Positions 3,773 through 56,475 of a DNA stretch of 64,000 nucleotides are shown here, piece after piece; positions within the stretch are counted from its first letter, which is position 1; the number at the start of each line of letters is the position of its first letter. The stretch is taken from assembly GCA_016169945.1 (NCBI GenBank), contig JADLSH010000061.1, positions 1,178,001-1,242,000 on the forward strand. The letters run 5' to 3'. Source of the DNA: Trachythela sp. YZ-2020 (taxonomy: Eukaryota; Cnidaria; Anthozoa; Malacalcyonacea; Clavulariidae). The translations under genes were made by a program, and so were the position numbers. Under the pieces are notes generated by a model. It saw nothing but the letters and a program-made list of their open reading frames with translations, did not search any database and was not told the DNA's origin.

Positions 3773-3949
3773 AATAATCTATTTAGACAAAATCCTGCGA
3801 AATTTTACTATTATCTCAAATATTGACAACAAATCCTGAAAATTGATTTTTATTATGCTATTGAGGCAATATTAATCAGTTTCTTGCAACGAAAAATTAG
3901 ATGTTGCGATATTCTACCAAAAAACGATTGTTTCGTAAGTGCTTATATT

Positions 3950-5037
3950 GGCTCTGCAATTGCAGTGATAAACTCCAGTCTTGTCTCTGCAATTGCAGTG
4001 CCAAACTCCAATCTTGGCTCTGCAATTGCAGTGATAAACTCCAGTTTTGTCTCCGCAATTCCAGTGCCAAACTCCAATCTTGGCTCTGCAATTGCAGTGA
4101 TAAACTCCAGTCTTGTCCCTGCAATTGCAGCGCCAAACTCCAATCTTGGCTCTCCAATTGCAGCGCCAAACTCCAATCTTGGCTCTGCAATTGCAGCGCC
4201 AAACTCTAATCTTGGCTCTGCAATTGCAGCGTCAAACTCCAATCTTGGCTCTGCAATTGCAGCGCCAAACTCTAATCTTGGCTCTGCAATTGCAGCGCGA
4301 AACTCCAATCTTGGGTCTGCAATTCCAGCGCCAAACTCCAATCTTGGCTCTGCAATTGCAGCGCCAAACTCTAATCTTGGCTCTGCAATTGCAGCGCCAA
4401 ACTCCAATCTTGGCTCTGCAATTGCAGCGCCAAACTCCAATCTTGGCTCTGCAATTGCAGCGCCAAACTCCAATCTTGGCTCTGCAATTGCAGCGCCAAA
4501 CTCTAATCTTGGCTCTGCAATTGCAGCGCCAAACTCCAATCTTGGCTCTGCAATTGCAGCGCCAAACTCCAATCTTGGCTCTGCAATTGCAGCGCCAAAC
4601 TCAATCTTGGCTCTGCAATTGCAGCGCCAAACTCCAATCTTGGCTCTGCAATTGCAGCGCCAAACTTAATCTTGGCTCTGCAATTGCAGCGCCAAACTCC
4701 AATCTTGGCTCTGCAATTGCAGCGCCAAACTCCAAATCTTGGCTCTGCAATTGCAGCGCCAAACTCTAATCTTGGCTCTGCAATTGCAGCGCCAAACTCC
4801 AATCTTGGCTCTGCAATTGCAGCGCCAAACTCCAATCTTGGCTCTGCAATTGCAGCGCCAAACTCTAATCTTGGCTCTGCAATTGCAGCGCCAAACTCCA
4901 ATCTTGGCTCTGCAATTGCAACGCCAAACTCTAATCTAGGCTCTGCAATTGCAGCGCCAAACTCTAATCTTGGCTCTGCAATTGCAGCGCCAAACTCCAA
5001 GTCTTGACTCTGCAATTGCAGTGCCAAGATTGGAGTT
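3950..5037 (+). repeat. 33-bp satellite array A (about 33 monomers)
   Basis: Tandem 33-bp monomers begin with ggctctgcaattgcagcg and end with caaactccaatctt. Each carries the perfect 12-bp palindrome CTGCAATTGCAG. Because 33 is divisible by three and the unit has no stop in several frames, long repetitive open frames arise on both strands (plus-strand unit GSAIAAPNSNL); I read these as by-products. The first monomers are divergent (gtgataaac instead of gcgccaaac). The array ends with a reversed half monomer, closing as a near-perfect ~46-bp palindrome. Confidence 0.97.
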
Positions 5038-11437: not shown

Positions 11438-11621
11438 TTAGTAGACAGATAAACACATTACATGAACAAAATATTAACCAATGAAAATAAAGTAGTCATA
11501 ACAATCATAACAAAATAGAATTAATATGTAAAGATATAGACTGCGTCTATATCTGAGGAATCACTGAGGAATCTTCCGTTGATAAGTAAATCAATTTTTG
11601 CTTTTCGTAAGTGCTTATATT

Positions 11622-14600: not shown

Positions 14601-15245
14601 CAGCGCCAAACTTAATCTTGTCTCTGCAATTGCAGCGCCAAACTCCAATCTTGGCTCTGCAATTGCAGCGCCAAACTCCAATATTGGCTCTGCCATTGCA
14701 GCGCCAAACTCCAATCTTGGCTCTGCAATTGCAGCGCCAAACTCTAATCTTGGCTCTGCAATTGCAGCGCCAAACTCCTATCTTGGCTCTGCAATTGCAG
14801 CGCCAAACTCCAATCTTGGGTCTGCAATTGCAGCGCAACTCCAATCTTGGCTCTGCAATTGCAGCGCCAAACTCAAATCTTGGCTCTGCAATTGCAGCGC
14901 CAAACTCCAATCTTGGGTCTGCAATTGCAGCGCCAAACTCCAGTCTTGTCCCTGCAATTGCAGTGCCAAACTCCAATCTTGGCTCTGCAATTGCAGCGCC
15001 AAACTCTAATCTTGGCTCTGCAATTGCAGCGCCAAACTCCAATCTTGGCTCTGCAATTGCAGCGCCAAACTCTAATCTTGGCTCTGCAATTGCAGCGCCA
15101 AACTCCAATCTTGGCTCTGCAATTGCAACGCCAAACTCTAATCTTGGCTCTGCAATTGCAGCGCCAAACTCCAATCTTGGCTCTACAATTGCAGCGCCAA
15201 ACTCCAAACTTGGCTCTGCAATTGCAGTGCCAAGATTGGAGTTTT
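11622..15245 (+). repeat. 33-bp satellite array B (about 110 monomers, higher-order structure)
   Basis: This is the same 33-bp monomer as array A, but 3.3 times longer. Diagnostic variants (monomers with ccagtcttgtccc, gtgataaac, ccaatattgg or gtctgtaattg) recur in the same order in blocks near 12.37-12.85, 13.45-13.55 and 13.85-14.33 kb. This shows higher-order amplification of multi-monomer segments. A plus-strand frame of over 1000 codons and minus-strand frames of 538 and 418 codons are open simply because the unit is 11 stop-free codons. Three small deletions (near 13065, 13090 and 14835) change frame. The array ends in a reversed half monomer, as in array A. Confidence 0.97.
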
Positions 15246-27904: not shown

Positions 27905-28023
27905 CGTAATATAAAGCGTTGCGTAACATAAAGCGTTGCGTAACATAAAACGTTGCGCAACGTTTAAATACTAATAGCGTTGCGTAACATAAAGCGTTGC
28001 GTAACATGAAGCGTTGCGTAACA
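27905..28023 (+). repeat. 17-bp minisatellite (ataaagcgttgcgtaac), two blocks
   Basis: Three tandem units near 27907-27962 and three near 27976-28023 are separated by an unrelated 14-bp insert with ttaaatactaata. Minor variants (aaacgttgcgcaac) occur. Confidence 0.85.
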
Positions 28024-28107
28024 TCCATACCGAGAGTATCCGGCAGAACTCCGAAAAATTCCATCGTGTAGTTAACCTGGGGGTTCCCTCGGGGTTCCCT
28101 ATGCGAC

Positions 28108-28775
28108 TTCGCATTTTGCTCATGCGTCTTCGCATTTTGCTCATGCGTCTTCGCATTTTGCTCATGCGTCTTCGCATTTAGTTCGCATTTTCTCATGCCT
28201 CTTCGCATTAAGGCCCTTCGTGGTCCGATGGCCCGGAATATCTCAGCCTAGCTGTCACTTAGTCTTAAGTTCGCATTTTTCTCATGCGTCTTCGCATTAA
28301 GGCCTTTGTGGCCCTATGCGCCCTCGCATTTTGCTCATGCGTCTCGCATTTAATTCGCATTTTTCTCATGCTTCTTCGCATTTAGTTCGCATTTTTTTTA
28401 TGCGTCTTCGCATTAAGGCCCTTCGTGGCCCGATGGCTCGGAATATCTCAGTCTAGCTGGCACCTAGTCTTAAGTTCGCATTTTTCATGCGTCTTCGCAT
28501 TAAGGCCTTTGTGGCCCTATGCGCCCTCGCATTTTGCTCATGCGTCTCGCATTTAATTCGCATTTTTCTCATGCTTCTTCGCATTTAGTTCGCATTTTTT
28601 TTATGCGTCTTCACATTTAGGCCCTTTGTGGCCCGATGGCTCGGAATATCTCAGTCTAGCTGGCACTTAGTCTTAAGTTCGCATTCTGTTCATGCCTCTT
28701 CGCATTAAGACCTTTGTGGCCTCATGTGCCTTCGCATTTCTTCGCATTTTGCTTCGCATCCTTCGCATTAAGACC
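28108..28775 (+). repeat. nested TTCGCATTTTGC minisatellite with ~205-bp higher-order unit
   Basis: A 21-bp unit (ttcgcattttgctcatgcgtc) is tandemly repeated at 28108-28185. Larger units of about 205 bp each contain several such words plus ggcccttcgtggcccgatgg and ctcagtctagctggcac, and repeat about three times to 28775. The same words appear in inverted orientation at 29810-29925, on the far side of the C2H2 gene. Confidence 0.9.
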
Positions 28776-40455: not shown

Positions 40456-40736
40456 TATGTCCGTGGCCGACGCTGAATTAAAGTCTGCTTTATCTTTAAA
40501 TATGTCCGCAACTATTCTGTAGCTTTTAAAGCGCATGATACTAAATACTTTTTTAATATTTGTAACATAAAATGTTACATTATTCTGGCGATATTGCAGT
40601 TGTTTTTATGAACAAATAATTATCCCGTGAGAGTGAGGGTAACACAGCTTTTGGCATTTCTCTTTAGATTTAATATATGAACAAAATATCCCGTGGGGGT
40701 GGGGGTAACATGACCGGTCCATAAGGGTAACATGAC

Positions 40737-41056
40737 TATGGCGTTCCGTTGCGGACAAAAATACGAGTTAAAATATTCAATTCGAAGTCGAATATTTTGG
40801 GATCGAAGTCGGGAATACGATAATCGAAGTCCAAAATACGATATTCGAAGTCCAAAATACGATAATCGAAGTCCAAAATACGATATTCGAAGTCCAAAAT
40901 ACGATAGTCGAAGTCCAAAATACGATAATCGAAGTCGACTTTTTTTCATCGAAGTCGAGAGGAAGTGAAAAAATAATATTCGAGAGGATACGGAAGTTGT
41001 CAGGATGAAACCGGAAATAGGGATTTATTGCCTGGGGACAAAGTTCCGTAGGTATA
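40737..41056 (+). repeat. left terminal inverted repeat with 21-bp minisatellite
   Basis: This is the reverse complement of 56236-56469 apart from repeat number. Six units of cgaagtccaaaatacgat-type 21-mers lie at 40801-40940, against two in the right repeat. Inside them come a cgactttttttcatcgaagtc palindrome-like segment and a conserved ggaaatagggatttattgcc. Confidence 0.95.
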
Positions 41057-41061
41057 TAAAA
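41051..41061 (+). promoter_or_regulatory. TATA box of the transposase gene
   Basis: tatataaaaag overlaps the inner edge of the left terminal repeat, 53 bp before the ATG at 41114. On the right side the matching position reads gtagtaaaaaa, so the two genes do not share this element exactly. Confidence 0.5.
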
Positions 41062-41113
41062 AGGCTTGCATTTATGCCTATTCGCGGGTTATTTTTAAAA
41101 TACGTACGCAAAA

Positions 41114-43079
41114 ATGGCGCAGCGATGGCTTCCAAATTTTGAAGAATTTTTTTACTCTTTGGGACGACTTATTGAAAATGCAGAGAGGCAGTTGCACTCT
41201 CAAACTTGCTCGGAATACCTTATACGCCGTCTGGACGAGTACGAACGAACTGTATCGACTTTGCTATCAAGGCTAAACGAAACTTATCAAAATATGCCTG
41301 ATGTACTTCGTTCTTTTCAAGACATCGAGTTTCTTCGAAATCGCTTGGGGGCACTGCGTCAAGAATTTGAAGGTCGATCCAACAATATGCAAGATGACAA
41401 CTGTGAAGAGGAATACAACTTGCGCAGTCGCCTAGAAAATACAAATGAAGGACGAGGACGGCCTAGGGTTGAGATTGCACAATCGCAGCTTGAAGCATTA
41501 CACAATGCAGGAGGCTTTCGTTGGAATGATGTTGCGCGTATGTTACAAGTTTCAAGCAGAACATTGCGCCGACGAAGACACGAATTGGGCATGAGGGTTG
41601 AAGGAAGAGAGTTCTCTGATATAAGTGATATCCAACTTGACAATGTTGTTCGAGAAGTGCTGCAGTCTACCCCGTCTGCAGGATTAAGGCTTGTTCAAGG
41701 ATCACTTAGACAGCAAAGCCTTGTTGTTCAAAGATTAAGGGTACTTCAATCGTTAAGGAGAGTAGATCCAGTCGCTTCTACTTTACGAAATGCAAGGCAA
41801 ATAATCCGAAGAAAGTATAACGTCAAAGCTCCAAATTCTTTGTGGCAAGTATAATTTCTTTATTTATACTTTTACTGTAATAGTTGGTTAGAGCTTTTGT
41901 TTGGGATTGCAAATATATATGGTTCCATCCCCCCCCCCCCACCATCTAAGAAATTTTATTTTTCAAATATCTGACAGGATCAGCCTGTTGACATATACTG
42001 TACAGTAGGACGCTGTATTTAGTGATGGTTCACCATGTTGCAATTATAAGTAAGCAATTACTATTGTCATGAAAGAAACTGTTTTATGTTACTCTCGATT
42101 TCAATTTGCTTTTCAAAACTGACTTCCAATGTTTACTTGTAAATTCGAAATGTTCGTTGTAAAGTTCCAAAGTTTGTTTCGAAGTTCGTTCCGATGATTT
42201 ACGAGTAAATGTGGGTACCCCAAAACTTTGTTACACACTCAAGCAACAGCAAAGTTTTGATACAGTGTCTGCACAAGAACTTAAGCTAAAAATGTTGGAT
42301 TTTTTATTCTAGGCACATAGATGGAAACCACAAACTAATTCAACCATACAGAATAGTTATCCATGGTGGTATTGATGGCTATTCACGTTTAGTTGTTTTC
42401 TTGCAAGCATCGACCAACAACGCCGCTGCGACTGTGTTGAATCTATTTCATTCAGCAGTTGAGAGGTACAACCTACCATCTCGGGTTCGTTCCGATCTTG
42501 GTTTGGAAAACATTGAAGTGGGAAGATATATGCTTGAGCGAAGGGGGATTAATCGTGGAAGTATCATTACAGGCACATCTGTTCATAACCAACGCATTGA
42601 GCGACTTTGGCGTGACGTCAATAGAGTTATTGTTTCTCGGTTTCTGAATATTTTTATACCTCGAGGGGAATAATATGCTAGATCCATCCAATGAAATGCA
42701 CTTGTTTGTCCTTCAATTTGTGTATCTAGACTTAATTAACAATGCATTGGATCAATTTTGTTCACAGTGGAACAATCATCCAGTGTCAACTGAATGCAAT
42801 TTTTCACCACAGCAGTTGTGGATCAGGGGTATGATAACTCAGAGCAGTTCATCATCTACCGCAGTACAAGATGTAGTGCATCCTTCAATTTCAGGCATTG
42901 ATGAAGAAGGTCCTGTCCCAGAACAACAACAAAACTACCAAGTTGTGGTTCCTCAGTATTCAGTTAACATTACAGATGAGCAATTACATCATATTAGAAG
43001 AGAAATTCAGGCAGTGAGCGACAATAATGGAATCACGCAATACATTACAGCTCTTAACATAGTAAGCTCTATTCTTTAA
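41114..43079 (+). CDS. rve-type DDE transposase, one GC-AG intron, one frameshift
   Basis: Exon 1 (41114-41844) encodes an N-terminal coiled-coil-like region and a helix-turn-helix ([20 protein letters not shown]). The intron 41845-42312 has a consensus GC donor (gcaagt) and an ag acceptor; joining restores an uninterrupted catalytic domain. Exon 2 (42313-43079) contains [32 protein letters not shown] and [12 protein letters not shown]. This gives a D-x57-D-x34-E triad typical of integrase-core (rve) enzymes. Near 42655 one base shifts the frame: it stops at 42671-42673 in one frame and continues as [20 protein letters not shown] to TAA at 43079. An acidic/Gln-rich tail follows. This copy is probably inactive because of the frameshift. 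It would cut and join the element's ends. Confidence 0.88.
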
Positions 43080-43468
43080 TTAAAGCTGATACCAGTCATT
43101 CCAGGCATTAAAATAAGTTTTATAAACCATACTTTTGAAAGATCTCACTAAAGTAAACTCCAGTGGCATATAAGCCGGGTCATGTTTTTTGAGGGGCGAA
43201 CGCCCTTCGGCGTGAGATACTCTGCCCCCCCCCTCCAGGTAAGACTTTGTTCAATTTTGAAAACATTCAAGAAAGACATATTTAATGATCTCAAATATGG
43301 TCAATAGATCATACATGTAAACATTTTCCTCACTTCTTTCTCATCCACAAGGACACTTATTTTGATTTACAAGGACACACTTTTGGTTCACAATGACACA
43401 AAGTGTGCAAAAAACACACTTATTAAAAATGCCTGGATTGAGCGATTACGAAAATATGCCAATAAGAC
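43080..43468. other. transposase 3' flank
   Basis: Holds a cattaaaataag polyadenylation-like string near 43107, a G/C-run stretch near 43190-43245, and the 4-bp target site AGAC (43465-43468) of the nested gypsy element. Confidence 0.5.
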
Positions 43469-43634
43469 TGTTACCATAGGATATATAATGTTAGATATGT
43501 ATTGTAATGTATATGTAGGGGTAATGGAGGACACGAAGACAAGATGGCGGACATCACTATAAAAGCTAGTAATCTTGTACTTTTAGTTATTCTTTAATAA
43601 ATCCTATCCTGTTAACTTGGAGTCAGGAGTCAGT

Positions 43635-45092
43635 ATGTCAAAAACTAAACCCCCAAAGTTAGATTTGGGTGCCTTTGAAGACAAGAGAGAATCAGTTGAG
43701 TTGTGGCTAGATCAATTTAACGACTGGTGTGTATTGCAAGGATTCAGAGACACAGCAAAACCTACAACCGATCCAGCTCATTGGAAAAGTGCACATCATG
43801 CCTCGGAGATAAGTGCGTTCAGACTGGCGTTACCTCTCGATGTTTTGAGAATGGTTAAATCGACTATTGTACCGACTATGGCCACAACGAGTGACGAAAA
43901 TAATAGAGATACGTTCATTGGTAATCCATGGGTATGGCAAAGAAAGTTGCTTTTTCATTATGCGGGTCAAGACACGGTACTCGCTGAGAGAATGAATTTT
44001 ATCGAGACTTGCAAGCAAAAACCTCATTAGTCTGTTGCTGAATTTGAAGCACGGTGCAAATATCATGGGTCTAAATGTGAATACAACAAAATGGCGAATC
44101 CTGAACAAGAACTTATTCGAGACAGATTTGTGACTGGAATTTACAACGATAAACTGAGAGCAGAACTTTTGCGGCATAGAAAAGATGATGGCTCAATAGC
44201 AACCCTTGCTGAAGTGGTTAACAAAGCGAAAGCTTGGGAGGCAGCTAACAATATTAACACTAAAGTTATGGAGGCACAACATACTGATGAGCAAGTGAAT
44301 TATACATTCAGAAAACAACGACAAAATTCTACTGATGAACAGACATTTAAGAAAGGAAAAAAGTGTGGGTATTGTGGCCGAAATGAAACTCATAATAGGC
44401 GAACATGTTCAGCTGGTAAACCCGGAGTTTACTGCAGAAACTGTTATGGAGCCAATCATTTTGCAATTGTTTGTCGAAGCCCTAAAGATCATTTTAAAAG
44501 ACAATGGATGGCTAAAAGGAAAGACAGTCAGGTAAATAGCCAAATTAATGTTTTGGATAATTCGTCTGATACTGATGAAGGGGAACAGTCAAATTATTAT
44601 GCAATGTCTTTAGACAGTCAATGTGAATCAATTCATGATGTTTCAGGAAAGAAATCACCAAAAAAACTGTTCACATCCTTATCATTATCTAGTAAAGGTA
44701 ATAAGTTCAAAAGAGTTCCTTTTCAAGTTGACACTGCGGCGACTTGTAATACAATGCCACTAGACATGTATCGAAAATTTGGGGGTGTCAGTAGTTTAAG
44801 GCCAACAAAGTCAACATTATTCTCATATTGTGGCCATTCAATAAAGCCGTTAGGAACTATCACCTTGCTATGTGAAGCACCAAAGAAGTTTGAATTTATA
44901 ACTTTTCAAGTTGTCGATGATAAGGACATACAAGGTAAGCCAGCCTTGCTTGGGGTTTCCGACTCTATTAAATTGGGACTTATCAAGTATGACAAAGCAA
45001 GAGTACGCATGGGAAGTGATAAGAAATCCACAGTAATAACTGATAGAGCAGAACATTTAATTAAGAATAATGACTGTGTTATTATCCTGTAA
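43635..45092 (+). CDS. gypsy gag-protease with one in-frame UAG
   Basis: From ATG 43635 (MSKTKPPKLDLGAFEDKRE) the frame runs to 45092, with a single in-frame TAG at 44028-44030. The pattern continues across it (WLDQFNDWCVLQGF before; RDRFVTGIYNDKLRAELL after), so this is a point nonsense mutation or a leaky stop. CCHC-like fingers (CGYCGRNETHNRRTC, YCRNCYGANHFAIVC) lie around residues 240-275. A retropepsin motif FQVDTAATCNTMP is near residue 365. The end overlaps pol by 23 bp in the +1 frame. Confidence 0.9.
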
Positions 45093-48015
45093 TGTAAGGG
45101 ATGGTCTCACAGAAGATCAATTCTTAAAGAGATATTCTGAAGCCTTTACTGGTCCCCAAAACCTGGGTAAGCCTGTCTCATTTGTGCTTGATCCTAAAGT
45201 CCAGCCTGTGCATGCCCCCATACACAGAATCCCTGTTGCGAAGCGAGAGGGAGTGAAAAAGAAGTTAGATGAAATGGTTGCATCAAACAAACTTTTAAAG
45301 GTTGAAGAACCCACTGATTGGTGCTCTAATATGACTGTTGTTGAGAAAGTAAAAGAAAGTGGTGAAGTCAAAACCAGGATTTGTTTGGATCCAAGTCAAA
45401 CAGTGAATAAAGCCATTATGAGGCCTAAGTATGCAATTCCAACTTTACAGGAACTTTTACCTGAACTAAGCTTAAAAACGTATAAGTGTTTTACTATAGT
45501 TGATGCATTAGATGGCTTTACCCAAGTAAAGTTGGATGAAGAGTCGAGTTTTACCACCACCATGCAAACCCCCTGGGGGCGTTATAGGTGGCTTCGCCTG
45601 CCTTATGGTATGTCCTCTGCGCCAGAGGAATTTCAACGACGAATACATGAAGCGTTAGATGGTTTACCCGGTGTTTTCAGCTTTGGCGATGATATGTTGA
45701 TATATGACCTTGGTAATTCTCCAGAGGAGGCTGAAATTTCTCATGATAAACATTTGAATCTCTTTATGCAACGGGTTCTTGAAAGAAATTTGAGATTAAA
45801 TCCTACTAAGGTCCAGTTTAAAATGAGAAGAATCGGATTTATGGGCCATATTATTACAGAAGATGGTATTTTACCTGACCCAAACAAGGTAAAATCTATA
45901 GTTGAGATGCCTACTCCTGATGACAAGCGTTCAGTTCAGAGATTTCTTGGCATGGTCAACTATTTACATTCATTTTGTCCATCACTTTCTGATGTGGTCA
46001 ATCCTCTGCGAAATTTGACAAGAACTGATGTTCAGTTTGTGTGGTCAGGAGCACATGAAGAGGCATTTCAAAAAGCTAAGGCACTGATTGTAGATGCACC
46101 CTGTTTGGCATATTTTGACTACAAAAAACCTATTGTACTTCAAGTTGATGCATCAGAAACCGGTCTGGGTGGGGCAATGCTCCAGCCCGCAGGTCTTGGT
46201 AAGCTCCAGCCTGTTGCTTACACCTCATCCACTATGCGTCCAAATCAAGTGTTATGGGCACAAGTTGAGAAAGAAACTTTGGCCATTTGTGCGGCATGTG
46301 AAAAATGGGATCTTTGGTTGTATGGTAAACAAATAACAATACATACAGATCATCAGCCTCTTGAAACCATCTTTAAAAAGCCTCTTGCTAAGGCACCTAG
46401 GAGGCTGCAACGGTTGTTGATGAGGTTGCAAAGATATGACATCAACGTTGTTTATAAGAAGGGTTCCAGTTTAGTTTTGGCGGATACTTTATCAAGAGCG
46501 CCCCTATCTACTACAGATGCTAGAAAGCAGAATAACTTTGATGTGTTTAGGTTGGAAGTTGAGCGACTTGACACCTTGCCTAACCCACAGCTTTTACCAA
46601 AGACATCCACAGATTTACAAGCTGCAACAACGAAAGACCCTGATTTGGTTCAGTTGGCGAAAGCAATTTCATCTGGATGGCCAGACGAAAAGTCTCAGCT
46701 TCCAGGTTGCATAAAGCCATACTGGTGTTTCCGAGATGAAATGTCTGTCCATAATGGTATAATATATCGTGGAAAACAAGCTGTTATTCCAACGTCCATG
46801 TACAAAGAAATGCTGGCAAAGATCCACGCATCACATGCAGGTGCAGAAAGTAACATTCGAATGGTAAAGGATATTATTTACTGGCCTGGAATGCAGACTG
46901 CAATTAAGGATATGTGTCAGAATTATGGACGATGTGCCCAATTTGGAAGAGAGAATTCTAAAGAACCCATGAAGTCACAGCCTGTTCCACAGTATCCTTG
47001 GCAGTTTGTAAGTCAGGATTTAATGGAGTTCGAGTCAAGTAACTACCTGGTCACAGTTGATCATTATTCTGATTTTATTGAACTTGATGAGTTAGACAAC
47101 ACGCTGTCATCGACGATTATTAAACATTCCAAATCACATTTTTCTCGTCATGGTATTCCAGAAATACTTCTTTCAGATAATGGACCCCAGTATATCAGCA
47201 CTGAATTTGCTGCGTTCTGTGACCTGTATGGTATAACCCATATCACTTCTTCCCCATATTGGCCAAAGGGTAATGGAAAAGCGGAGTCAGCCGTGAAGAT
47301 AGTCAAAGCATTTATGAAAAAGTGTACTGATATTCAACTAGCCTTGCTGCTCTATAGAAATACGCCACAAGAGGGACATACGCTAAGTTCAGCACAGAGG
47401 AGTATGGGTCGAAGGACAAGACTTAATATTCCAGTAACCTCAGAGTTGCTTGTCCCTGATAAAGGCATATCAAAGTTGGTGCAGTTAGAAATCAATCTCA
47501 AGAAACAAAAGGCAAAGAAGTTTTATGATAGAACGGCGTCGGATGAACATCCAGATGTTCCAATTGGAAATTATGTTTACAGTAAACCAATCCCTCGTAA
47601 CAAATCGAGTCCGTGGCAGTTTGGTAAAGTTACAAGTACGCCTACCGTAAGGTCTTATGTAATAAGTACTGCAAAGGGTACTGTACGGAGAAATCGAGCT
47701 CAAGTTCGCCCTACCGCCCCACCTCCACCTCAAGAGAAGAAAAGTGATTTTCCAAGTTTTCAAAATTTTCCTGCACCCGAGGCTGAAAAGATAGAAAGAC
47801 GAAGTTATTCACAGATTTTAGATAAACAGTGCGGAGTACCCACAGTGTTAAGACAAGCGCAGGTAATCCCTGACAATGTGACTTCTCCAAATACTGAGTT
47901 GAGTTTGTCAAGTACTGAACCTAATCCTTCCACTCTTGAATCTGGTGAGACTATGTACAAAACAAGATATGGTCGAGTAGTTAAACCGCCCAAGATTTTT
48001 GATCCTTCTGGGTGA
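45070..48015 (+). CDS. gypsy pol: RT, RNase H, integrase
   Basis: An intact 981-codon frame starts at ATG 45070. RT motifs include RICLDPSQTVNKAIMRPKYA, FTIVDALDGF and a catalytic FGDD (near residue 204) where most elements have YxDD. RNase H starts around residue 355 (LQVDASETGLGGAML; TIHTDHQPLETIF). Integrase has an HHCC-type zinc region (about residues 580-625) and a DDE core with VSQDLMEF, LLSDNGPQYIST and GNGKAESAVKIV. There is no stop or frameshift, so pol may still be functional. Expression probably needs a +1 shift or reinitiation from the gag frame. The host transposon's two genes lie on either side. Confidence 0.95.
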   Translation: MTVLLSCNVRDGLTEDQFLKRYSEAFTGPQNLGKPVSFVLDPKVQPVHAPIHRIPVAKREGVKKKLDEMVASNKLLKVEEPTDWCSNMTVVEKVKESGEVKTRICLDPSQTVNKAIMRPKYAIPTLQELLPELSLKTYKCFTIVDALDGFTQVKLDEESSFTTTMQTPWGRYRWLRLPYGMSSAPEEFQRRIHEALDGLPGVFSFGDDMLIYDLGNSPEEAEISHDKHLNLFMQRVLERNLRLNPTKVQFKMRRIGFMGHIITEDGILPDPNKVKSIVEMPTPDDKRSVQRFLGMVNYLHSFCPSLSDVVNPLRNLTRTDVQFVWSGAHEEAFQKAKALIVDAPCLAYFDYKKPIVLQVDASETGLGGAMLQPAGLGKLQPVAYTSSTMRPNQVLWAQVEKETLAICAACEKWDLWLYGKQITIHTDHQPLETIFKKPLAKAPRRLQRLLMRLQRYDINVVYKKGSSLVLADTLSRAPLSTTDARKQNNFDVFRLEVERLDTLPNPQLLPKTSTDLQAATTKDPDLVQLAKAISSGWPDEKSQLPGCIKPYWCFRDEMSVHNGIIYRGKQAVIPTSMYKEMLAKIHASHAGAESNIRMVKDIIYWPGMQTAIKDMCQNYGRCAQFGRENSKEPMKSQPVPQYPWQFVSQDLMEFESSNYLVTVDHYSDFIELDELDNTLSSTIIKHSKSHFSRHGIPEILLSDNGPQYISTEFAAFCDLYGITHITSSPYWPKGNGKAESAVKIVKAFMKKCTDIQLALLLYRNTPQEGHTLSSAQRSMGRRTRLNIPVTSELLVPDKGISKLVQLEINLKKQKAKKFYDRTASDEHPDVPIGNYVYSKPIPRNKSSPWQFGKVTSTPTVRSYVISTAKGTVRRNRAQVRPTAPPPPQEKKSDFPSFQNFPAPEAEKIERRSYSQILDKQCGVPTVLRQAQVIPDNVTSPNTELSLSSTEPNPSTLESGETMYKTRYGRVVKPPKIFDPSG

Positions 48016-48311
48016 GTCTTCGATAGAACAATATAGAGTACTGTAGTTTGGTTGTTTAACCATTTTCTTTGTTGAACTTTAGTTAGATTTAAAACATTTT
48101 CAAAAAAAAAAAATAAACGAACATTTTTTTTTCAATGAACAGGGGGGGATGTTACCATAGGATATATAATGTTAGATATGTATTGTAATGTATATGTAGG
48201 GGTAATGGAGGACACGAAGACAAGATGGCGGACATCACTATAAAAGCTAGTAATCTTGTACTTTTAGTTATTCTTTAATAAATCCTATCCTGTTAACTAG
48301 ACCATCTCTAA

Positions 48312-48441
48312 TGCCGGTTTTCCACTTGCGAATTTTTTCGTGCGAAGCGAATTTTTCATTTGTCTTTCGTCTCTCAACTGGAACCATGTGGAACTAATTG
48401 GATAAAGACAAAAGAAAAAAAATCGCAAGTGGAAAACCGCC
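48312..48441. mobile_element. 130-bp MITE, TIR GGCGGTTTTCCACTTGCG, TTAA-like flanks
   Basis: Inverted ends (gccggttttccacttgcg on the left, cgcaagtggaaaaccgcc on the right) are flanked by ctaa and ttaa. This suggests a degenerate TTAA target site, as in piggyBac or Kolobok elements. Confidence 0.7.
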
Positions 48442-48467
48442 TTAACACTTGACATGAGCAAACAATA

Positions 48468-49017
48468 CAGGGATGGATCCACCGGGGGGGTGCAAATTTG
48501 AACAATTTCCCGATCAAATGCAAGGCTATTGTCATTGTTCGAACAAAAATTATATTATGAGACAAAATAAGAGACAGTAATTTGAGACTTTGAGTAATAA
48601 CTAATAACATGGTGATAAGTGAATAACAATTCAAAATATAGTCAATCACGACTAGCAACTTCCTGCAGTCACTACAGTGCAATTCGACGTGGCTTTTCAT
48701 TAAAAATCATTAAAAATCATTAAAAATCCCAATATTTTGTGTAGATTCAAACGTAGTGAGTAGTCAGACCACAGAATAGAGACTAACCAGAAGTCCAACT
48801 CTGTTGTTCAAATATCAGAAATCCGTCGCCCAGATTGCAGGAAATGCCATTTCCGAGGTTCTAGAATTCAAAAATGATGGGCTTCAAAAATGGGGGTGAT
48901 GCCGCCGTACCCCCCTAGCAAGGACGCGCCAAAGGCGCGTGTCGCGACTTCGGCGCGAAACACCTAACTAAATCACCCCTGGCACCCCCCTATCAAATCA
49001 TGCTGGATCCATCCCTG
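48468..49017. mobile_element. 550-bp hAT MITE, TIR CAGGGATGGATCCA, TSD AAACAATA
   Basis: 14-bp inverted ends are flanked by a perfect 8-bp duplication AAACAATA (48460-48467 and 49018-49025). The interior has G/C runs and a cgcgacttcggcgcg-type segment but no gene. It lies downstream of the HECT gene inside the 15.7-kb transposon. Confidence 0.93.
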
Positions 49018-49089
49018 AAACAATATAGAATGTAATAATTTAAAACACAACGTGCTTATAGACATAGTGGTCTTTCCCTGCCAACAAAA

Positions 49090-49436
49090 CTATAACAATA
49101 AAAAGCAATTATAAACTCTATGACTGCATGTGACAATTGATTGGAAATAGATTGCACATTTGCACCCAAGTGATTGTATAAATAACATGTTGCATCTGGA
49201 TTCAAGAAAGAGGGTTACGAAAATCAGCATGAATTCTTTTCCTTCTTGCCGAATTGCTGCAGACATGCTTGAGTTAAATGACTCTTGGTCAAGAGTCCCT
49301 AGCATCGCAGGCAGACATAGCTTCATTAAGCATGTAGAGGCAAATATCGATGTCGACGTCGAATTGACCTCCAAAACAACACGTGTAAATGGCACTGAGC
49401 TGATGCCAGTAATGAATTTTAACAAGCTTTCCAATT
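49090..49436 (-). CDS. HECT gene last exon with catalytic cysteine
   Basis: Follows acceptor tttttag. Joining to the previous exon gives QQ-E-LESLLKFITG in phase. The Cys in ASTCLMKL matches the thioester cysteine region of HECT enzymes. The frame runs ~45 residues past the usual end of the domain, so the exact 3' end is uncertain. Confidence 0.75.
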
Positions 49437-52400
49437 CTAAAAAGATATAAAATTATATTAAAATGCGGCTGACTCTTCTGCCTCTTCGGAACTGTAAAAA
49501 CTTGCATTAATGGGACCAATCCCCTATTAAACTAAATTTTGAACTGGGACTAGGAAAATTCATTAATTCAGTAACGGCTGTATACAGGCTATTTAATAGG
49601 GGATTGGTCCATTAACTCATAGTTAGTATTAAATCAACTACAGTATGATTAAAGTACCAACGTCTTAGTTAATATTAGAAACATTTAGTAGTATATTAGG
49701 CACCCTGGAAATATTTTTAGAGGAACATAGTAGGGTGCACCTAGCACCTTGTCTCATTATCACCTAAGTCATACGTAATGCAAACTGCAGTTAAATACCC
49801 TGTTGACTAGCATCATTTATAAAACTTGCTAGCATTGCGTACATTGTGGCATCTTCCGGCTTGAAGACAATACTTTGCAACACAGCAGATGCGCTCACAG
49901 CATTCTCATTGTGTAGGAAAACTTCCTCAAACTGGCTAGGGTTTTTCCTAATTTCTTCAAGGATTCCTAGCGTCTGGAGACCCTTTGCAAAATTGTCTAG
50001 CATGACAGCTCTCTTCACAAGCACATGATAGGACACCATGGCTTCAGCAATGGCAATGCTGTTGTCAACCTATAGGTGAGAAAGCAAATGTTTAATTTGT
50101 AATTACAAAATATTACAGACTGTTAGGCTTGAAAGTTCAGTGACACAGTAAGGCATGTCACAAGCGAGGATACAATGCAATTATGGGAGTGGTCACAATT
50201 AAGGGAGCGGTCATTATATGTACTATTTATTTCCATCAAAGGGGGGTTGGAAAATTTACCTCCAATGTTCAAGGGGGGGTTGAAAATGTTTTTATCAGCA
50301 TTTTCCCATTTGCCGACACCCATGCACCCCCCCCCATAAATGATGACCACTCCCTAAACAAAATGGATTTTTCAGAGTGCATATGCTGCAGTAGGCATTT
50401 GGCAGTATGGGGTAGATACTAGAACTGTACATACATTCGGTAAGGTTACCAATCCACTATCTTGGAGAACATTTAGGAATGGTTCAGATGAATTCAATTC
50501 TTGGAGTTCATCATTTTCCTTAGCTGATATCAACTATATATATAACAAATTATATAACAATTACTGAGTACTGTAGTCCGTGTTTAGGGTGATGCTATGC
50601 AGTTGCAGATAGAAGGTACTGTAAATAAAATCAGGGCCGCCAGTAAATTTGTCGTGCCCTAGGTTAAGAAAATACTCGGATTAATATCAACTCCTACATT
50701 TTGACAGGCTCTGCCTAATTTTAAGCGTTGGTAATTTGCCTTCCCCCACCACCCATCAGTGGCCCTGAAAACAATAACCAACCTTCAAACTATTATTTGG
50801 ACCATTGAGTTCAGATTATACATTGTCATATTGTTAATAGAACATTGAATTACATTGCGTGAACCGTGCATGTCGAAGGGGCTGTATTAAGAATTATATT
50901 GAAACACAGGAGAGTGCTAACAAATTCCATATGCCACCCGTTATTGGCACACAAGCATCGGTAATGTACATGACTATTGACTACACAGACTGTCAACTTC
51001 CAAACAATTTTGTCAACTTCCAACGTGTTATCGCAGTAATTTATAAATCTAATAGACAACATGCTGTACTGTACCTTGTCCAGCATGTCACGTTTTTCTG
51101 TGTCGTACACATCGTATATGGAAGCATAAGCTGATGCTCTCTGTATGTCCGTAGTTGCTATGTAATAGTAATGCGAAGGCGCCAAATATGGGAATCCACC
51201 GCAACCATGTACGAGACTTTGTGCCACCAATTTTCCTAAAATCTCTGGAATTCCAGCTGCCAGACAAGATTGATCATACCTGAACAACAATCTGCTATGC
51301 GGACCTTCAAAAATACTAAATAGTTCTGCAGCACAGAACTTTTCTTTCACAGCGGAAAAAAACACACGTAGAACTCCTCCTGTGTCAATGGCTGGTTGAC
51401 CACAAAATGAAACACGAAGAGGCCTTGTGGGGTCAAATGATGGGTTTTTATAGAATGCCACAGCATCACTTAGGATATCATCCTGATCGACAGTCAACTT
51501 ACATAGCTGACCTGTGACATTAACAGATTTTAATCTGTTCATTTTCTGAACAACACTCATTTTCCTACAGGTGTCTGTATCTAAGAGTGGGCTATCTTCA
51601 TCTATACTGTCCTCATCGCCACTCTGGTTCTCATACACATCACTACTTGTCTCAATTACAACTAAAATAAATAATTAAATTAAAATCAATGAACCACAAG
51701 TAATAGTTTTCAAAATAATGTTCTTTAAGTTCTTTCAGAAATTATAAAAACATTATAGCACACATAGAAATATGCGGGGGGGGTGTATTGAAAAGTGTAC
51801 TCTCAATGTCTTCAAAATAACATTCCAGAAATATGTCTAAAAAATGGCACTTCAGAGGGTCTAAAATCACTCTAAATATCAACATTTTCTGGGCATGTCC
51901 TATGACCCCTCCCCCTAGGTAGAAAGGTGACACTCACAGCATTACATGGATTATAATTCCTTAAGGTTTGCTGTACACATAAAAGCTAGCCACATGCTTT
52001 AACAACATTAACTACAGTAAAGTACAGTACAGTACAAAGACTGTACAGTGGAAAAGTACTGCCAGGTAACGAATTAATTGAAACACAAAAAACTACAGTA
52101 CCTTCATCCGTGTCTGAATTTCCAGCAAGCATGGCATCAACTGCTTCATCAAGGCTTTTACTTCTAGTCGCTGCCAACTCATTAGCATTTTCGCTGATGT
52201 CTGGAAAAATTATACGAAGCCTACTCTTTGTTTCAGATTCATATCTGGTTCTCTTTTAATTTAGTGGCTAAACAATTTAAAATTAGAATTAATGAAATAC
52301 TGCAAACTGTACATGTCATATCACACCAAAAGTTGCCAAGAATTAATGACTGTGTACATGTGACAAAAGCATGGGGAACCGTCGCCTACAATGACAGTAC

Positions 52401-55400
52401 TGTACCACTGATTGCTGACAAAACTAATCCTATTCATTCAGCGAAGTGGATCTGCAGTAAAAGTGCAGTTAGTTAATCTTAAGGTTTTCACCCAAAACAC
52501 TTATGTCATAACTGCTGCAATAACAATAAATGGTTTTCCTACCTTTAAAAGCTTATCGGTACTTTTATTTAAAAAAAAACACCCTGAAATTTGTCTTATA
52601 CGTACTAACCCCAATTTACTAACCAACTCCACTGCACATTAGTATTCTCCCTGAGGCAACAACGCAATGCGCTCATTGCGCTGTTCCGGAGCAGTAATAA
52701 TAATTTTGCTTGGGTATTTACACTTGGTTGTAGGAAATATTTTGTAACAAATACAAAATTTGTTTTTATACTCGATCTTTTTGTAAGTTATGCTTGTGTG
52801 TGTTGTATGTGTTGAAACCGAGAGAAGGTTTAGTCAGTGGTAAGGTACTGTCTTATAATAACATGTGTTAAGATGTTCAAAGAACTTCAAATACCTGCTC
52901 TGTTTCACTTCCTTCTGAATCCGAGGCACACTGTGACTGATGTCTTGCAAAAGCTGGTTATTGATGTCGGTAACAATTCCTCATCAAGGTCATCATCTTT
53001 GCCAATATCAACCTTTATCCCAATTAAATAATGATACTGTAGACACAAGCAACCGTCGAAGATGCAAGTCTCCTAGGGGGGGTCCAGGAAATTTTCTGAA
53101 TTCTAGGGCCTCTGAGACTGCATTTTTTCGCATTCTGAGACGTCTTTTAAAAATATCTTAAAAGCCATAAATGGCAACGTTTTGTTGTTTCCAAACCAAA
53201 AGAAAGTAGGGTGCATGTCAAAATATATTAATAATTATTTATGATTTGCCTAACTAAGGCCGACTTGGCCGCCATATTCGAAGTCGCTCATGATCGCTGC
53301 TGTCAGTGCTATGTGTGCAAATTCAACCACCACAGGCATTTTTTACTTAGGAGTTGGGATTCTAGATTGGGAATACCACACAATCACACATCGTATGGGC
53401 TCTGTACCCCCTCCCCTTCCTGCCCGGATTTTAACTTTTCACAAGGGCAGTCCTTCTGTTGATTGGGGGGCTCCCCCCCCCCATGCACCTCCCCCCCTCC
53501 CTTCGCTACGCCACTGATAGTGAGAGAGGTGGCGCAATGTACTGTGTGATCAAGACATTTTACTTACTATACCTACATATCACCATATCAATATGTCAAG
53601 TATTTTGTCAAAGCATACTATGGACCCGCAGTAATTGGCTCACGCTGTTGCGGTGCTCCTGCCAAATTTAGACGTCATTTGTTGTAATTCCTGTTATGTT
53701 ATGTAATTTATATATAGTAATTTTGTATATTTTTGTTGGCGAAGCTAATAAAACTAAAACTAAAAACTACAGTCTTTCTAAGCACAGATACAATAGATTT
53801 TGGCAAGGTATTTTCACTGCTTTAATAAATATTGTAATGGTACCTTTGAAACTCTTTGAAACTCTACGTTATTGTGTAATTGCAATAAATGTTTTATCTT
53901 ACAAGTGATATGTGACTGCTTAGTTGAATATCTCATCCTATAATCTCACCTGCTAAGGGGAATGTAAACCCATCCAGTACGCCCGAAAATGTAAATTTTG
54001 GAGCACCCTCTCAAAAACTAAACCTTAATGTAGCCTAATTAATGCTGTTTTACATTACATTATTGTACCTTTTCATGTAAGCAGGCCAGGTCTTTAAGTG
54101 CTCTAATATATATAGAGCCATTTCCAGTTATGTGTTTTATTACACGACCAGAGATTTCTTGTCCCTCCTGAAGTGTGATTGAAACAGCATCAGTTCCAAC
54201 ACTTCTCACAAATTCAGAGCTGAAAAATACATACAAATTAATTTAAATAATTGAATTATTAGTGTTTCTGATTTTCTAAGCTTTGTACGAGTTAGAAAAG
54301 TTCTTACCCCAAATTATGAAATATAAATTTACTTGTACATCAGACATACCAGTCTGTCCTATTACCCTGAAGGCACATGCACTTATATCCGAATATATTG
54401 GCTGTGCAACTCCAGTTTTTCAGCTCTGGCTGGTCACTATGGGGTGCCATATCTGCCACAATTACATAATTATAAAATTAGTCAGCATTTTTCTTATTAT
54501 CATTTCTCTTATTATTCAACAGCATTAATTATATATATTATTCAACAGCATTAATGTCTCGATCAATTCCATGGTTGCCCAACTCCCCCCCCCCCCTCCG
54601 GGCGTTTGTTGGGCATTCTCAACTGTACTTGTTCTCAGGGTCGGGCATTTGCTTTCTGCAGGTTAGCCCCGGGGTGGGGAATTTGTTTGAGGCTAAAAAG
54701 TTGAATATTTATCGCTTGTTTCGCCATTTATCCGTACTTTAGTACGCATGTTTACACCCCATGTTTACACGTGCGTGCGTATTGCAAATTAATCATGGCG
54801 AACATACACACAACATTTAATTATAGTTGAATGACACACAAAGACTTTTTTCTTGTCCATCCTGTTGATACATTGACTTACTTCCGCAATTTGATATTGC
54901 TATATAAAGTTTTGAGACTTCAATATTTTAACTAAAAACGTTTTGAAACGAAATGGCTACAGAATCGATTTTAAATACAGATATATTGATACGTGATAGG
55001 GCTTGCATTCGATTTTTTGGATCAGAAATCCTCAGAAAATGTAAGTCCCCAAGGGTGGGGATTTTGTTGCATTATTTGGACCCCATAGTGGGGCATTTGC
55101 AAAGTTTTTTCGCCAAAATGACAAAAACCCGACAAATGCCAGGGGGAGGGGTTTATATTATTCAGCACTTGTTGCACTATTATTAGCCAGCTATGTTATC
55201 ATAATCCAGCTCTGATTTATATCATATATTATTTGGTTTGACTTTGGATTGGTCAGTGGGCCAAGGGGAGCGGGGGGGGAATGAAAACCGAGATGTTCAA
55301 ATGAATTTTATGTCACCCCCCCCCCCCCTTCAAAATTTACATACAATATTTGCTAATGCCTCGTACAGTAATTCGTGTAACTCGTAATCCATTTAAAAAA

Positions 55401-56170
55401 TTTATAATTACAAATGGAGTAAATACAAGTTGCACAAATTTTTTTGGCCTCCCATATTTCCTTGCATGATTTATCTGACCTCCTCCCTGTATCTATTAAC
55501 TTACCCAACTTCATTTCCATGATTGTCGACAAGACGCTCGTGAAATAGAGAGCTTATCGCCGCCCTGAGCTGAGTTTCCTGGTATGTCTTGTGAAAAGAC
55601 CAGGCATCAATATATAAGCCTTTCTCAATAAGATTGGCTTTCGCCTTAAGTCTGGGTACAGTTCCCCAACTTGGCGAAGGCAACAGGCAAACATCTTTGA
55701 ATGTCGGCTCGCACTGTCTTCCTTGCTTGCCCACACGAACCAGCACCTTTTTCAAACCGGCCTGTTGATGTCGAACGAGCTGCTTGCTTCCCCTTCCTTA
55801 TTTTGCCTTTTCCTTGACTGTAATTCCGCAAATGCGAATAATTTGTCGACAAGGGTATTGGACGAGAAGTTGAAGGAAATGAAGCACATTGAAAGCTACT
55901 GCTACCTGCAACAGATGTATTTTGGCTTGACGAAGAAGCCTCATTGCCGTCAACGCCATTTGCAACAGTCGCCGGACTTGCCGCATCTCTTGGTATAGAA
56001 AATGCATTTCGTATTTCTTCTTCTCTTGATCCAAACCGGTTGGACGAATTCCCACTACTCGAACTGGCCTCCGATAAGCTGGGGACACTATGCAAATTGC
56101 TTATTACAGCTGCTACTATTCGCTGAATGTTCCTTTCTTCTTGTCGTTCCGCCATGCTGAACAGTGCCAT
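49090..56170 (-). CDS. HECT-type E3 ubiquitin ligase gene, at least seven exons
   Basis: Exons in gene order: 56170-55505, 54219-54069, 52936-52895 (tentative), 52200-52102, 51661-51075, 50518-50450, 50069-49799 and 49436-49090. Phases agree at most junctions. Exon 1 is Ser-rich and then carries KDVCLLPSPSWGTVPR; one frameshift near 55760-55790 divides it. Acidic linkers precede the HECT part: LRVSFCGQPAIDTGGVLRVF, LVAQSLVHGCGG, ENDELQELNSSEPFLNV, and the final exon with LLKFITGISSVPF and the cysteine box FASTCLMKLCLP. The layout resembles the G2E3-like HECT family expanded in fish and invertebrates, which would transfer ubiquitin to a target. The start lies 66 bp inside the right terminal repeat, so I infer it is transposon-encoded and not host. 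Confidence 0.8.
49507..49615. mobile_element. 109-bp MITE between TTAA sites
   Basis: Inverted ends (TGGGACCAATCCCCTATTAA-like on the left, the TGGACC variant inverted on the right) are bounded by TTAA at 49507-49510 and 49612-49615. This is a piggyBac/Kolobok-type target. It sits in the intron between the last two HECT exons. Confidence 0.85.
49799..50069 (-). CDS. HECT gene exon 7
   Basis: Between acceptor cacctatag and a gtattt donor. The helical segment starts VDNSIAIAEAMVSYHVLVKR and ends SFINDASQQ. Reading through the donor gives an immediate stop, which supports splicing. Confidence 0.75.
50203..50354. mobile_element. 152-bp Harbinger-like MITE, TSD TAA
   Basis: Inverted ends GGGAGYGGTCATYAT are flanked by TAA on both sides (50200-50202 and 50355-50357). 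The interior has G and C runs. It lies in a HECT intron between exons 50450-50518 and 49799-50069. Confidence 0.75.
50450..50518 (-). CDS. HECT gene exon 6 (23 codons)
   Basis: Acceptor gctaag and donor gtaacc bound a phase 0-0 exon with the peptide ENDELQELNSSEPFLNVLQD and three more residues. It links the DMLDK end of the previous exon to the VDNSIAI start of the next. Confidence 0.7.
51075..51661 (-). CDS. HECT gene exon 5 (start of HECT domain)
   Basis: Acceptor ttttag and donor gtacag. An acidic Ser/Asp region (SGDEDSIDEDSPLLD) precedes the HECT N-lobe: LRVSFCGQPAIDTGGVLRVF, RLLFRYDQSCLAAGIPEIL, KLVAQSLVHGCGGFPYLAPS. Confidence 0.85.
51662..52101. other. HECT intron with G-run stretch
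   Basis: Contains cggggggggtgtatt near 51774 and acccctccccctaggt near 51906. These may be the ends of a short MITE, but I could not define terminal repeats or a target duplication. Confidence 0.4.
52102..52200 (-). CDS. HECT gene exon 4
   Basis: Acceptor ttccag and donor gtactg. The phase fits exon 5 exactly. The peptide is DISENANELAATRSKSLDEA followed by VDAMLAGNSDTDE, an acidic linker. Confidence 0.65.
52895..52936 (-). CDS. HECT gene exon 3 (tentative, 14 codons)
   Basis: Encodes SQCASDSEGSETEQ between a possible acceptor (acatcag) and donor gtattt, in phase with exon 2. Its end phase does not fit exon 4 by one base, so an exon is missing, a base is lost, or this call is wrong. Confidence 0.4.
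52940..54068. other. HECT intron; partial hAT-like end
   Basis: cttcgctacgccactg at 53501-53516 has the form of a hAT-type right end (inverted CAGTGGCGTAGCG), but no left partner or 8-bp duplication was found. G/C runs near 53405-53500 accompany it. Confidence 0.4.
54069..54219 (-). CDS. HECT gene exon 2
   Basis: Acceptor tttttcag and donor gtacaa. The peptide contains SEFVRSVGTDAVSITLQEGQ and VIKHITGNGSIYIRALKDLA, the conserved segment that precedes the HECT domain in this family. The phase joins exon 1 (EVG-SEF). Confidence 0.75.
54220..55504. other. first HECT intron, with C-rich MITE-like segments
   Basis: Holds C-run stretches at about 54583-54600 and 55313-55328. A short plus-strand reading from ATG 54953 ends in a possible donor (gtaagt near 55040). 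The frame is too short to call a gene, and no element boundaries were defined. Confidence 0.35.
55505..56170 (-). CDS. HECT gene exon 1, with a frameshift
   Basis: Starts at the ATG at 56168-56170 (MALFSMAERQEERNIQRIVA); a second ATG at 56155 is in frame, within a tandem 15-bp duplication. The Ser-rich region runs to GKIRKGKQAARSTSTG. The pattern then moves to another frame at VRVGKQGRQCEPTFKDVCLL and ends at donor gtaagt (55499-55504). Confidence 0.75.
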
Positions 56171-56235
56171 GCTGAACAGTGAACACGTTTCTCAAGCTAG
56201 CGCGGGAAATTTTGGGGGTTCGCCTGTTTTTTTAC

Positions 56236-56469
56236 TACCTACGGAACTTTGTCCCCAGGCAATAAATCCCTATTTCCGGTTTCATCCTGACAACTTCCGT
56301 ATCCTCTCGAATATTATTTTTTCACTTCCTCTCGACTTCGATGAAAAAAAGTCGACTTCGATTATCGTATTTTGGACTTCGATTATCGTATTTCCGACTT
56401 CGATCCCAAAATATTCGACTTCGAATTGAATATTTTAACTCGTATTTTTGTCCGCAACGGAACGCCATA
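56236..56469 (-). repeat. right terminal inverted repeat of the 15.7-kb transposon
   Basis: Inverted copy of 40737-41056 with two instead of six 21-bp units. The inner edge (ctacctacggaac) matches the left inner edge (gttccgtaggta). Confidence 0.95.
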
Positions 56470-56475
56470 CATGAC

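Follow-up and report, generated by a model that had tools for sequence, protein, structure and literature searches.

The element and its genes

The stretch of DNA analysed here, hereafter the window, comprises 64,000 nucleotides from the octocoral Trachythela sp. YZ-2020 (C279:1178001-1242000 of the assembly), and its positions 40737-56469 are a DNA transposon which carries a DDE transposase gene of the rva_4 type and, convergent with it, a spliced HECT gene. The element begins with the letters TATGGCGTTCCG and ends with CGGAACGCCATA, the termini of its family being TATGGCG..CGCCATA. On the left it is bounded by a terminal inverted repeat (TIR) of 326 bp (40737..41062, plus strand), which opens with these same first letters, and on the right by one of 242 bp (56228..56469, minus strand), the two being near-identical across their aligned part; outside them stand two identical copies of a perfect 6-bp target site duplication, CATGAC (40731..40736 on the left, 56470..56475 on the right). 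The left repeat holds a tandem array of 6.4 units of 21 bp (40802..40936, plus strand) and the right repeat two such units, the 84-bp excess of the former corresponding to four units present on the left only. This left array provides candidate binding sites for the transposase.

The transposase gene lies on the plus strand and starts with the ATG at 41114, 51 bp inward of the left repeat. Its exon 1 (41114..41844) encodes the N-terminal part, with a weak helix-turn-helix match, and its exon 2 (42313..43076) the rva_4 integrase core, identified by Pfam, with the residues D, D and E separated by 58 and 34 residues; both exons appear to be joined by a GC-AG intron, which would set the end of exon 1. 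The rva_4 profile (PF24764) matched two pieces of the transposase with E-values of 2.1e-47 and 5.2e-20, and no Integrase_H2C2 match was obtained on these pieces with Pfam, unlike in the Gypsy integrase described below. A search of solved structures with a transposase piece returned one unrelated chain only. A Paramuricea clavata protein (P0024) was 90% identical to one of the pieces. In the window copy the frame of exon 2 is broken near 42650; it is open in the copies C108 and C138.

HECT is encoded on the minus strand in at least seven exons, whose splice signals are consistent, as are the phases across exons 1-2 and across exons 3-7; at least one additional exon is likely to lie between 54069 and 52200. 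Exon 1 (55505..56170) contains the start codon, either the ATG at 56170 or a second one in frame at 56155, which are 57 and 72 bp inward of the right repeat, respectively. Exon 2 (54069..54219) belongs to the N-terminal region and exon 3 (52102..52200) to a Ser/acidic linker, both being delimited by splice signals, as is exon 4 (51075..51661), which encodes the N-lobe and gave weak matches to E6AP and RSP5 among solved structures. Exon 5 (50435..50533) was placed by splice signals, homologues and copies, exon 6 (49799..50069) by splice sites and phase together with homologues and copies, and exon 7 (49093..49436), whose true end is probably near 49220, encodes the C-lobe with a candidate catalytic Cys in the sequence ASTCLMKLCLP, which we take to be a HECT active-site-like motif. 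On the joined exons 4-7 the HECT profile (PF00632 of Pfam) scored 38.6 bits against a cut-off of 23.9 (1.2e-9). A Paramuricea clavata protein (P0001) was 97% identical to a HECT piece. The frame of exon 1 has one break in the window copy and is open in C138 and C279:744031.

Nested between the two genes there is a Ty3/Gypsy long terminal repeat (LTR) retrotransposon (43469..48298, plus strand), recognized by its two identical LTRs of 149 bp (43469-43617 and 48150-48298), its AGAC target duplication (43465..43468 and 48299..48302) and its domain matches; its coding region, with a pol open reading frame at 45070-48015 on the plus strand, matches reverse transcriptase, RNase H, H2C2 and rve. In the copy C182 it is absent and the transposon sequence runs on continuously, window positions 43467 and 48304 being two bases apart there. 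The Gypsy element is thus outside the transposon's own gene set. The possibility that the rve signal of the transposon was that of the Gypsy integrase was rejected, as the transposase (41114-43076) lies outside the Gypsy element and its rva_4 score is far above that for rve.

A preliminary description of this DNA, made from the letters alone, had proposed a 15.7-kb transposon with inverted repeats of 320 and 234 bp, a perfect CATGAC duplication, an rve-type DDE transposase and two convergent genes starting 57-80 bp inside the repeats. The repeats, the duplication and the bounds were verified, and so was the transposase, more exactly of the rva_4 type; the convergence of the genes also held, the repeat lengths and gene offsets being replaced by those measured above. 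The size did not hold, because 4.83 kb of it is the nested Gypsy, so that the unit is about 10.9 kb long, the length without the Gypsy and its duplication. Since both genes are frame-broken and a Gypsy has been inserted, the window copy is probably dead.

Copies and families in the genome

The genome (578 Mb in 396 contigs) was searched for copies of the element, and the TIR gave 41 matches. Both genes were found in six assembled copies, namely those in the window, C138, C279:744031, C111, C108 and C182, the last with one end only. The insertions at C279:1218737 (the window), C138:35184 and C279:744031, two of them on one contig, share their flanks and the CATGAC duplication, and therefore represent one insertion which the assembly contains three times; counting them as three insertions was rejected on account of the same flanks, and they may be a segmental duplication or unmerged haplotypes. 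Such a threefold presence with conserved flanks and duplication is also what would be seen if the window element were a domesticated locus that supplies the host with a HECT gene, but this is very improbable, as both genes are broken in the window copy and the three places have the more ordinary explanations just given. In contrast to these three, C111 (10,582 bp, duplication CCCTTG) and C108 (duplication CATTAC) are independent insertions with unrelated flanks, both with the two genes. In the C138 copy, the 5' part of the HECT gene is internally duplicated.

Empty sites were also found: the flanks of C111, joined over one duplication, match three repeat copies end to end with 96-97% identity, and the one inspected base by base contains a single CCCTTG. 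Among the matches listed, those with at least 84% identity to the window HECT (n=17) all fell within the six assembled copies, and the match ranking after them had 50%. Nine TIR-bearing loci were opened, the fetched stretches not always reaching the second end; these were C182 and eight others (C354, C204, C82, C191, C135, C239, C193 and C390), in which neither transposase nor HECT was detected by tblastn within the stretches fetched. Two of these, C204 and C354, have a 77%-similar TIR end and a 671-aa frame of unassigned kind. No match to the TIR pattern was found in viral contigs.

A second family with the same two-gene layout is represented by C389 (6,634 bp, duplication AAAATC) and C385 (6,880 bp, duplication CATATG). 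Its TIRs are TATGGGGTGCC, with the start TATGGGGTGCCATATCCGCC on both ends of both copies, and its ends read TATGGGG. C385 contains an uninterrupted HECT frame of 348 aa, which covers positions 13-305 of the 306 of the Pfam profile with 45 bits and gave no match to solved structures, and C389 contains an uninterrupted rva_4 transposase frame of 494 aa; the HECT frame of C389 departs from that of C385, and the end of the transposase frame of C385 departs from that of C389. Between C389 and the window, HECT is 31% identical and the transposase 54%. The TIR arrays of C389 and C385 repeat every 19-21 bp, with a sequence different from that of the window array, and this common period without a common sequence would fit binding sites arranged on one face of the helix. 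Over both families, five independent insertions show five different perfect 6-mer duplications.

These results bear out the proposal of the preliminary description that HECT belongs to the transposon as native cargo, since the pair occurs in independent insertions, in a second TIR family and near many other rva_4 transposases (see below). The loci by which that description could be checked, with TIR, transposase, HECT and TIR in this order between 6-bp duplications, exist in the CCCTTG and CATTAC copies, as does the empty site with its single CCCTTG. As for the two findings that it had named as contrary, TIR copies without the HECT gene turned out to be without the transposase as well (eight of eight, in the fetched stretches), and the close HECT matches listed lay within the six copies instead of at a host locus devoid of TIRs.

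Association of HECT genes with rva_4 transposases

The pairing was then assessed over the whole genome, on 180 HECT loci obtained by merging a search with the window protein (107 matches) and a Pfam search (135 matches). The candidates scored were the best 106 of 524 for the window HECT, 129 of 452 for the Pfam HECT and 150 of 1659 for rva_4. Among the matches listed, 39 of the 180 HECT loci were within 10 kb of an rva_4 match and, reciprocally, 39 of the 150 rva_4 matches were near a HECT locus, the transposase being on the 3' side of HECT and on the opposite strand in 34 of the 39 pairs and otherwise placed in five. A chance neighbourhood, in which abundant HECT genes and rva_4 elements meet at random or in regions rich in transposable elements, could be thought of for two families this large (452 and 1659 first-look candidates), all the more as seven shifted controls gave 0, 3, 2, 3, 2, 4 and 4 pairs (mean 2.6), above the 0.9 expected for uniform placement. 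Yet 39 pairs, of which 34 have one fixed orientation, together with the presence of both genes between matching TIRs and target site duplications in two families, make this the least credible of the explanations, with hardly any probability left to it. Of the 15 Pfam HECT loci scoring higher than 58 bits, among them the clearest host-type genes, none had an rva_4 match listed within 10 kb.

Because the lists contain the best candidates out of larger numbers, the far sides of a series of loci were read directly. At nine HECT loci, with 27-50% identity to the window HECT, the 3' side showed a convergent rva_4-type transposase by tblastn in all nine, that of C53 being of a divergent type and that of C388 fragmentary. 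Conversely, six rva_4 loci had first been taken as unpaired; four were read, leaving out C101 and C297:2653820, whose rva_4 stretches match that of C389 exactly or almost exactly, and a HECT-like gene was found downstream in all four. In C30, C370 and C376 it is convergent, above the Pfam cut-off in C370 and C376 and at 23.6 against 23.9 bits in C30; in C219 the HECT N-lobe was detected by tblastn (4.5e-11) in a gene truncated where the fetched sequence stops. In all, the 13 further loci read, nine starting from HECT and four from the transposase, had the partner, and 12 of them were convergent.

Some of these loci presented features of their own. The HECT genes of C30, C370 and C376 form a divergent subfamily: the usual D.GG..RE is replaced by GRG.GV.RE, an HTC motif is present, and the adjoining transposase belongs to another rva_4 group. 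In C53:68100-73749, the partner of a HECT gene of 30% identity is integrase-like and divergent; it opens with a zinc-ribbon-like part, contains an IENWW motif and may represent a further transposase lineage paired with HECT. The HECT gene of C219 (176000-179945) has a weak match to a ubiquitin-binding zinc finger, and the frame before it a weak zinc-ribbon match.

Selection and shared history

Silent and replacement changes were compared in 12 pairs of HECT genes, six between families and six between near-identical copies (0-3% silent change). In all six pairs between families the proportion of silent differences (pS) was 0.71-0.85, that is, saturated, and that of replacement differences (pN) was 0.30-0.42, while the matched transposases had a pN of 0.17-0.38, below that of HECT (three pairs). 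Judged by these counts, HECT is under purifying selection between families; as its pN is below the saturated pS, yet above that of the transposase, it is constrained but faster-evolving than its partner.

The same data bear on a one-off capture, by which a host G2E3-like HECT gene would ride along without function in a single transposon lineage. That several copies are broken and that HECT looks nearly unconstrained within the window family would agree with such an event, but the same pairing is met again in families with a HECT only 27-50% identical to that of the window, the gene shows purifying selection between families, and among the HECT matches listed none falls between 50% and 84% identity, those of at least 84% being confined to the element copies; a one-off capture is considered highly unlikely.

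Taken as a whole, the evidence points to a broken two-gene cut-and-paste transposon of the IS3EU/GingerRoot type, whose HECT ligase has been selectively kept as the regular partner of the transposase in this genome, a reading to which we give a probability of roughly 0.87. Several results weigh against it. Among the matches listed, 141 of the 180 HECT loci and 111 of the 150 rva_4 matches had no partner within 10 kb; the HECT gene of C219 is on the same strand as the transposase and not convergent, and may therefore correspond to another layout or to a neighbour's gene; and no copy examined has both genes intact. Within the window family, the dN/dS of HECT is 0.63-0.75 on just 3-7 silent changes, which gives no clear sign of constraint, and that of the transposase, 0.29-0.60 on just 1-5 silent changes, gives little more. 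The motif around the candidate catalytic Cys, [AS][NS]TC.[MC].[LC].[LI]P, was present in the window and six others, that is, in 7 of the 17 sources scanned, from five families, and absent in the other 10, some of them without coverage of the C-lobe, and in C82:6228676 the Cys is missing at the place of the motif, which reads ASTPRRAHLP. That the protein is an active ligase would follow from the conservation of the motif over five families, C82:6228676 apart, together with the selective constraint.

The trees of the two genes agree only in part. Shallow groups are concordant between the transposase and HECT trees, and the distances of the two genes are correlated over 21 pairs (Mantel r 0.77, p 0.0001), the correlation falling to 0.23 (p 0.08) over 13 dereplicated families. 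The window transposase groups with C379/C82a/C24/C82b (99/99), and the window HECT is placed elsewhere. In approximately unbiased (AU) tests, for which the groups were named after the trees had been seen, holding the window HECT in the C379/C82a/C24/C82b group was borderline (p 0.055), and forcing the window transposase into the 14-row group of the HECT tree gave 1e-5. This suggests that partners may have been exchanged between families and not strictly co-inherited.

Comparison with known systems

By its ends, the length of its duplications and its type of transposase, the transposon fits the named superfamily IS3EU/GingerRoot. As described, this superfamily has TA..TA ends, usually 6-bp duplications, and an integrase-like DDD/E transposase without HHCC zinc finger (PMC10045372). 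The window element resembles it in each of these respects, with TA..TA termini, 6-bp duplications and an integrase-like DDD/E transposase lacking an H2C2 match, while HECT occurs nowhere in that paper. A second likeness is found in fungal IS3EU elements carrying TET genes, which are described as having TAYGG..CCRTA ends, 6-bp duplications, TIRs longer than 30 bp, and transposase and alpha-kinase genes oppositely oriented with a TET/JBP gene between them (PMC12730594). In the view of their describers, the TET/JBP genes help the elements to escape methylation silencing (PMC12730594). The coral element shares the TATGG-type ends, the TIRs of more than 30 bp, the 6-bp duplications and the transposase opposite a second enzyme gene, and differs in that this partner is a HECT ubiquitin ligase instead of an alpha-kinase.

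In the open-licence PMC literature, no paper was found on an IS3EU element with HECT, which could be annotated elsewhere (Repbase reports or the original GingerRoot description), nor any combining a HECT ubiquitin ligase with a DDE transposase and terminal inverted repeats, or HECT with a transposase superfamily and a target site duplication. The preliminary description knew of no named family with this layout; as regards the superfamily, which is already known, this did not stand, whereas the pairing of HECT with an IS3EU-type transposase has not been previously described in the literature found.

Among cellular proteins, G2E3-like HECT proteins likewise have a C-terminal HECT domain, and two coral homologues (P0001 and P0007) are so named, the difference being that the coral HECT is encoded within TIR-bounded transposons. 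CUE matches were weak and below the cut-off in the homologues P0006 and P0007, and above it in P0165. Enzymes of the ubiquitin/SUMO pathway are known as transposon cargo, since KDZ/Zisupton, Mutator-like and other transposons carry SUMO-protease-like genes; in those cases the enzyme is a protease and not a ligase, and the transposases belong to superfamilies other than that of the coral element.

Possible role of the ligase

The DDE core, the TIRs, the target site duplications and the empty site argue for cut-and-paste transposition with a 6-bp stagger. In the proposed mechanism, the 21-bp units arrayed within the long inverted repeats would be the binding sites of the transposase, which would cleave at the TATGG ends and integrate the element with that stagger, and the HECT ligase would help the transposon, possibly by ubiquitinating a host factor which limits transposition through silencing, genome surveillance or repair. 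Such a host target appears to be the most likely role, at somewhat less than an even chance, and is favoured by the faster evolution of the ligase relative to the transposase, by its possible exchange between families, and by the counterpart that it has in the TET/JBP genes carried by fungal IS3EU elements.

The main rival to a host target is that HECT serves transposition as a co-factor whose target is the transposase itself, affecting either its level and turnover or its release from the strand-transfer complex; host unfoldases and proteases act on transposase complexes in some other systems. The strong and mostly convergent association with one type of transposase would be expected of a co-factor, while the partner swaps suggested by the tree comparison would be hindered by a tight protein-protein fit, and this role is regarded as rather unlikely, behind that of a host target. 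What probability these two leave falls to a benefit for the host or to some other role. More generally, we lean slightly towards HECT being, throughout an animal lineage of IS3EU-like transposons, the standard second protein, needed to disarm host control or to complete transposition, and exchanged between families.

Transposons usually carry little besides their mobility genes, and a ligase kept by selection as partner would be a transposon effector. If this holds, a group of DNA transposons would have its own ubiquitylation enzyme, much as the fungal IS3EU elements have a kinase and TET enzymes, and the substrate of the ligase would point to a host factor controlling transposition in animals, or to the regulation of the transposase. 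Together with the alpha-kinase and TET/JBP genes of the fungal elements, the coral pair suggests a tendency of the superfamily to have a further enzyme gene oriented against the transposase. The coral pair by itself suggests that these elements bring their own tool for modifying host-cell proteins. A ligase kept in this way would also suggest that part of the coral genes with the annotation G2/M-phase-specific E3 ligase-like, of which two such names were met, belong to transposons and not to the host.

Other features of the window

Away from the transposon, the same 33-bp satellite unit, with strong GC skew, occurs in two arrays, at 3948-5027 (33 copies) and 11620-15233 (110 copies), and a cluster of tandem repeats with unit sizes from 17 to 203 bp is located at 27905-28739.

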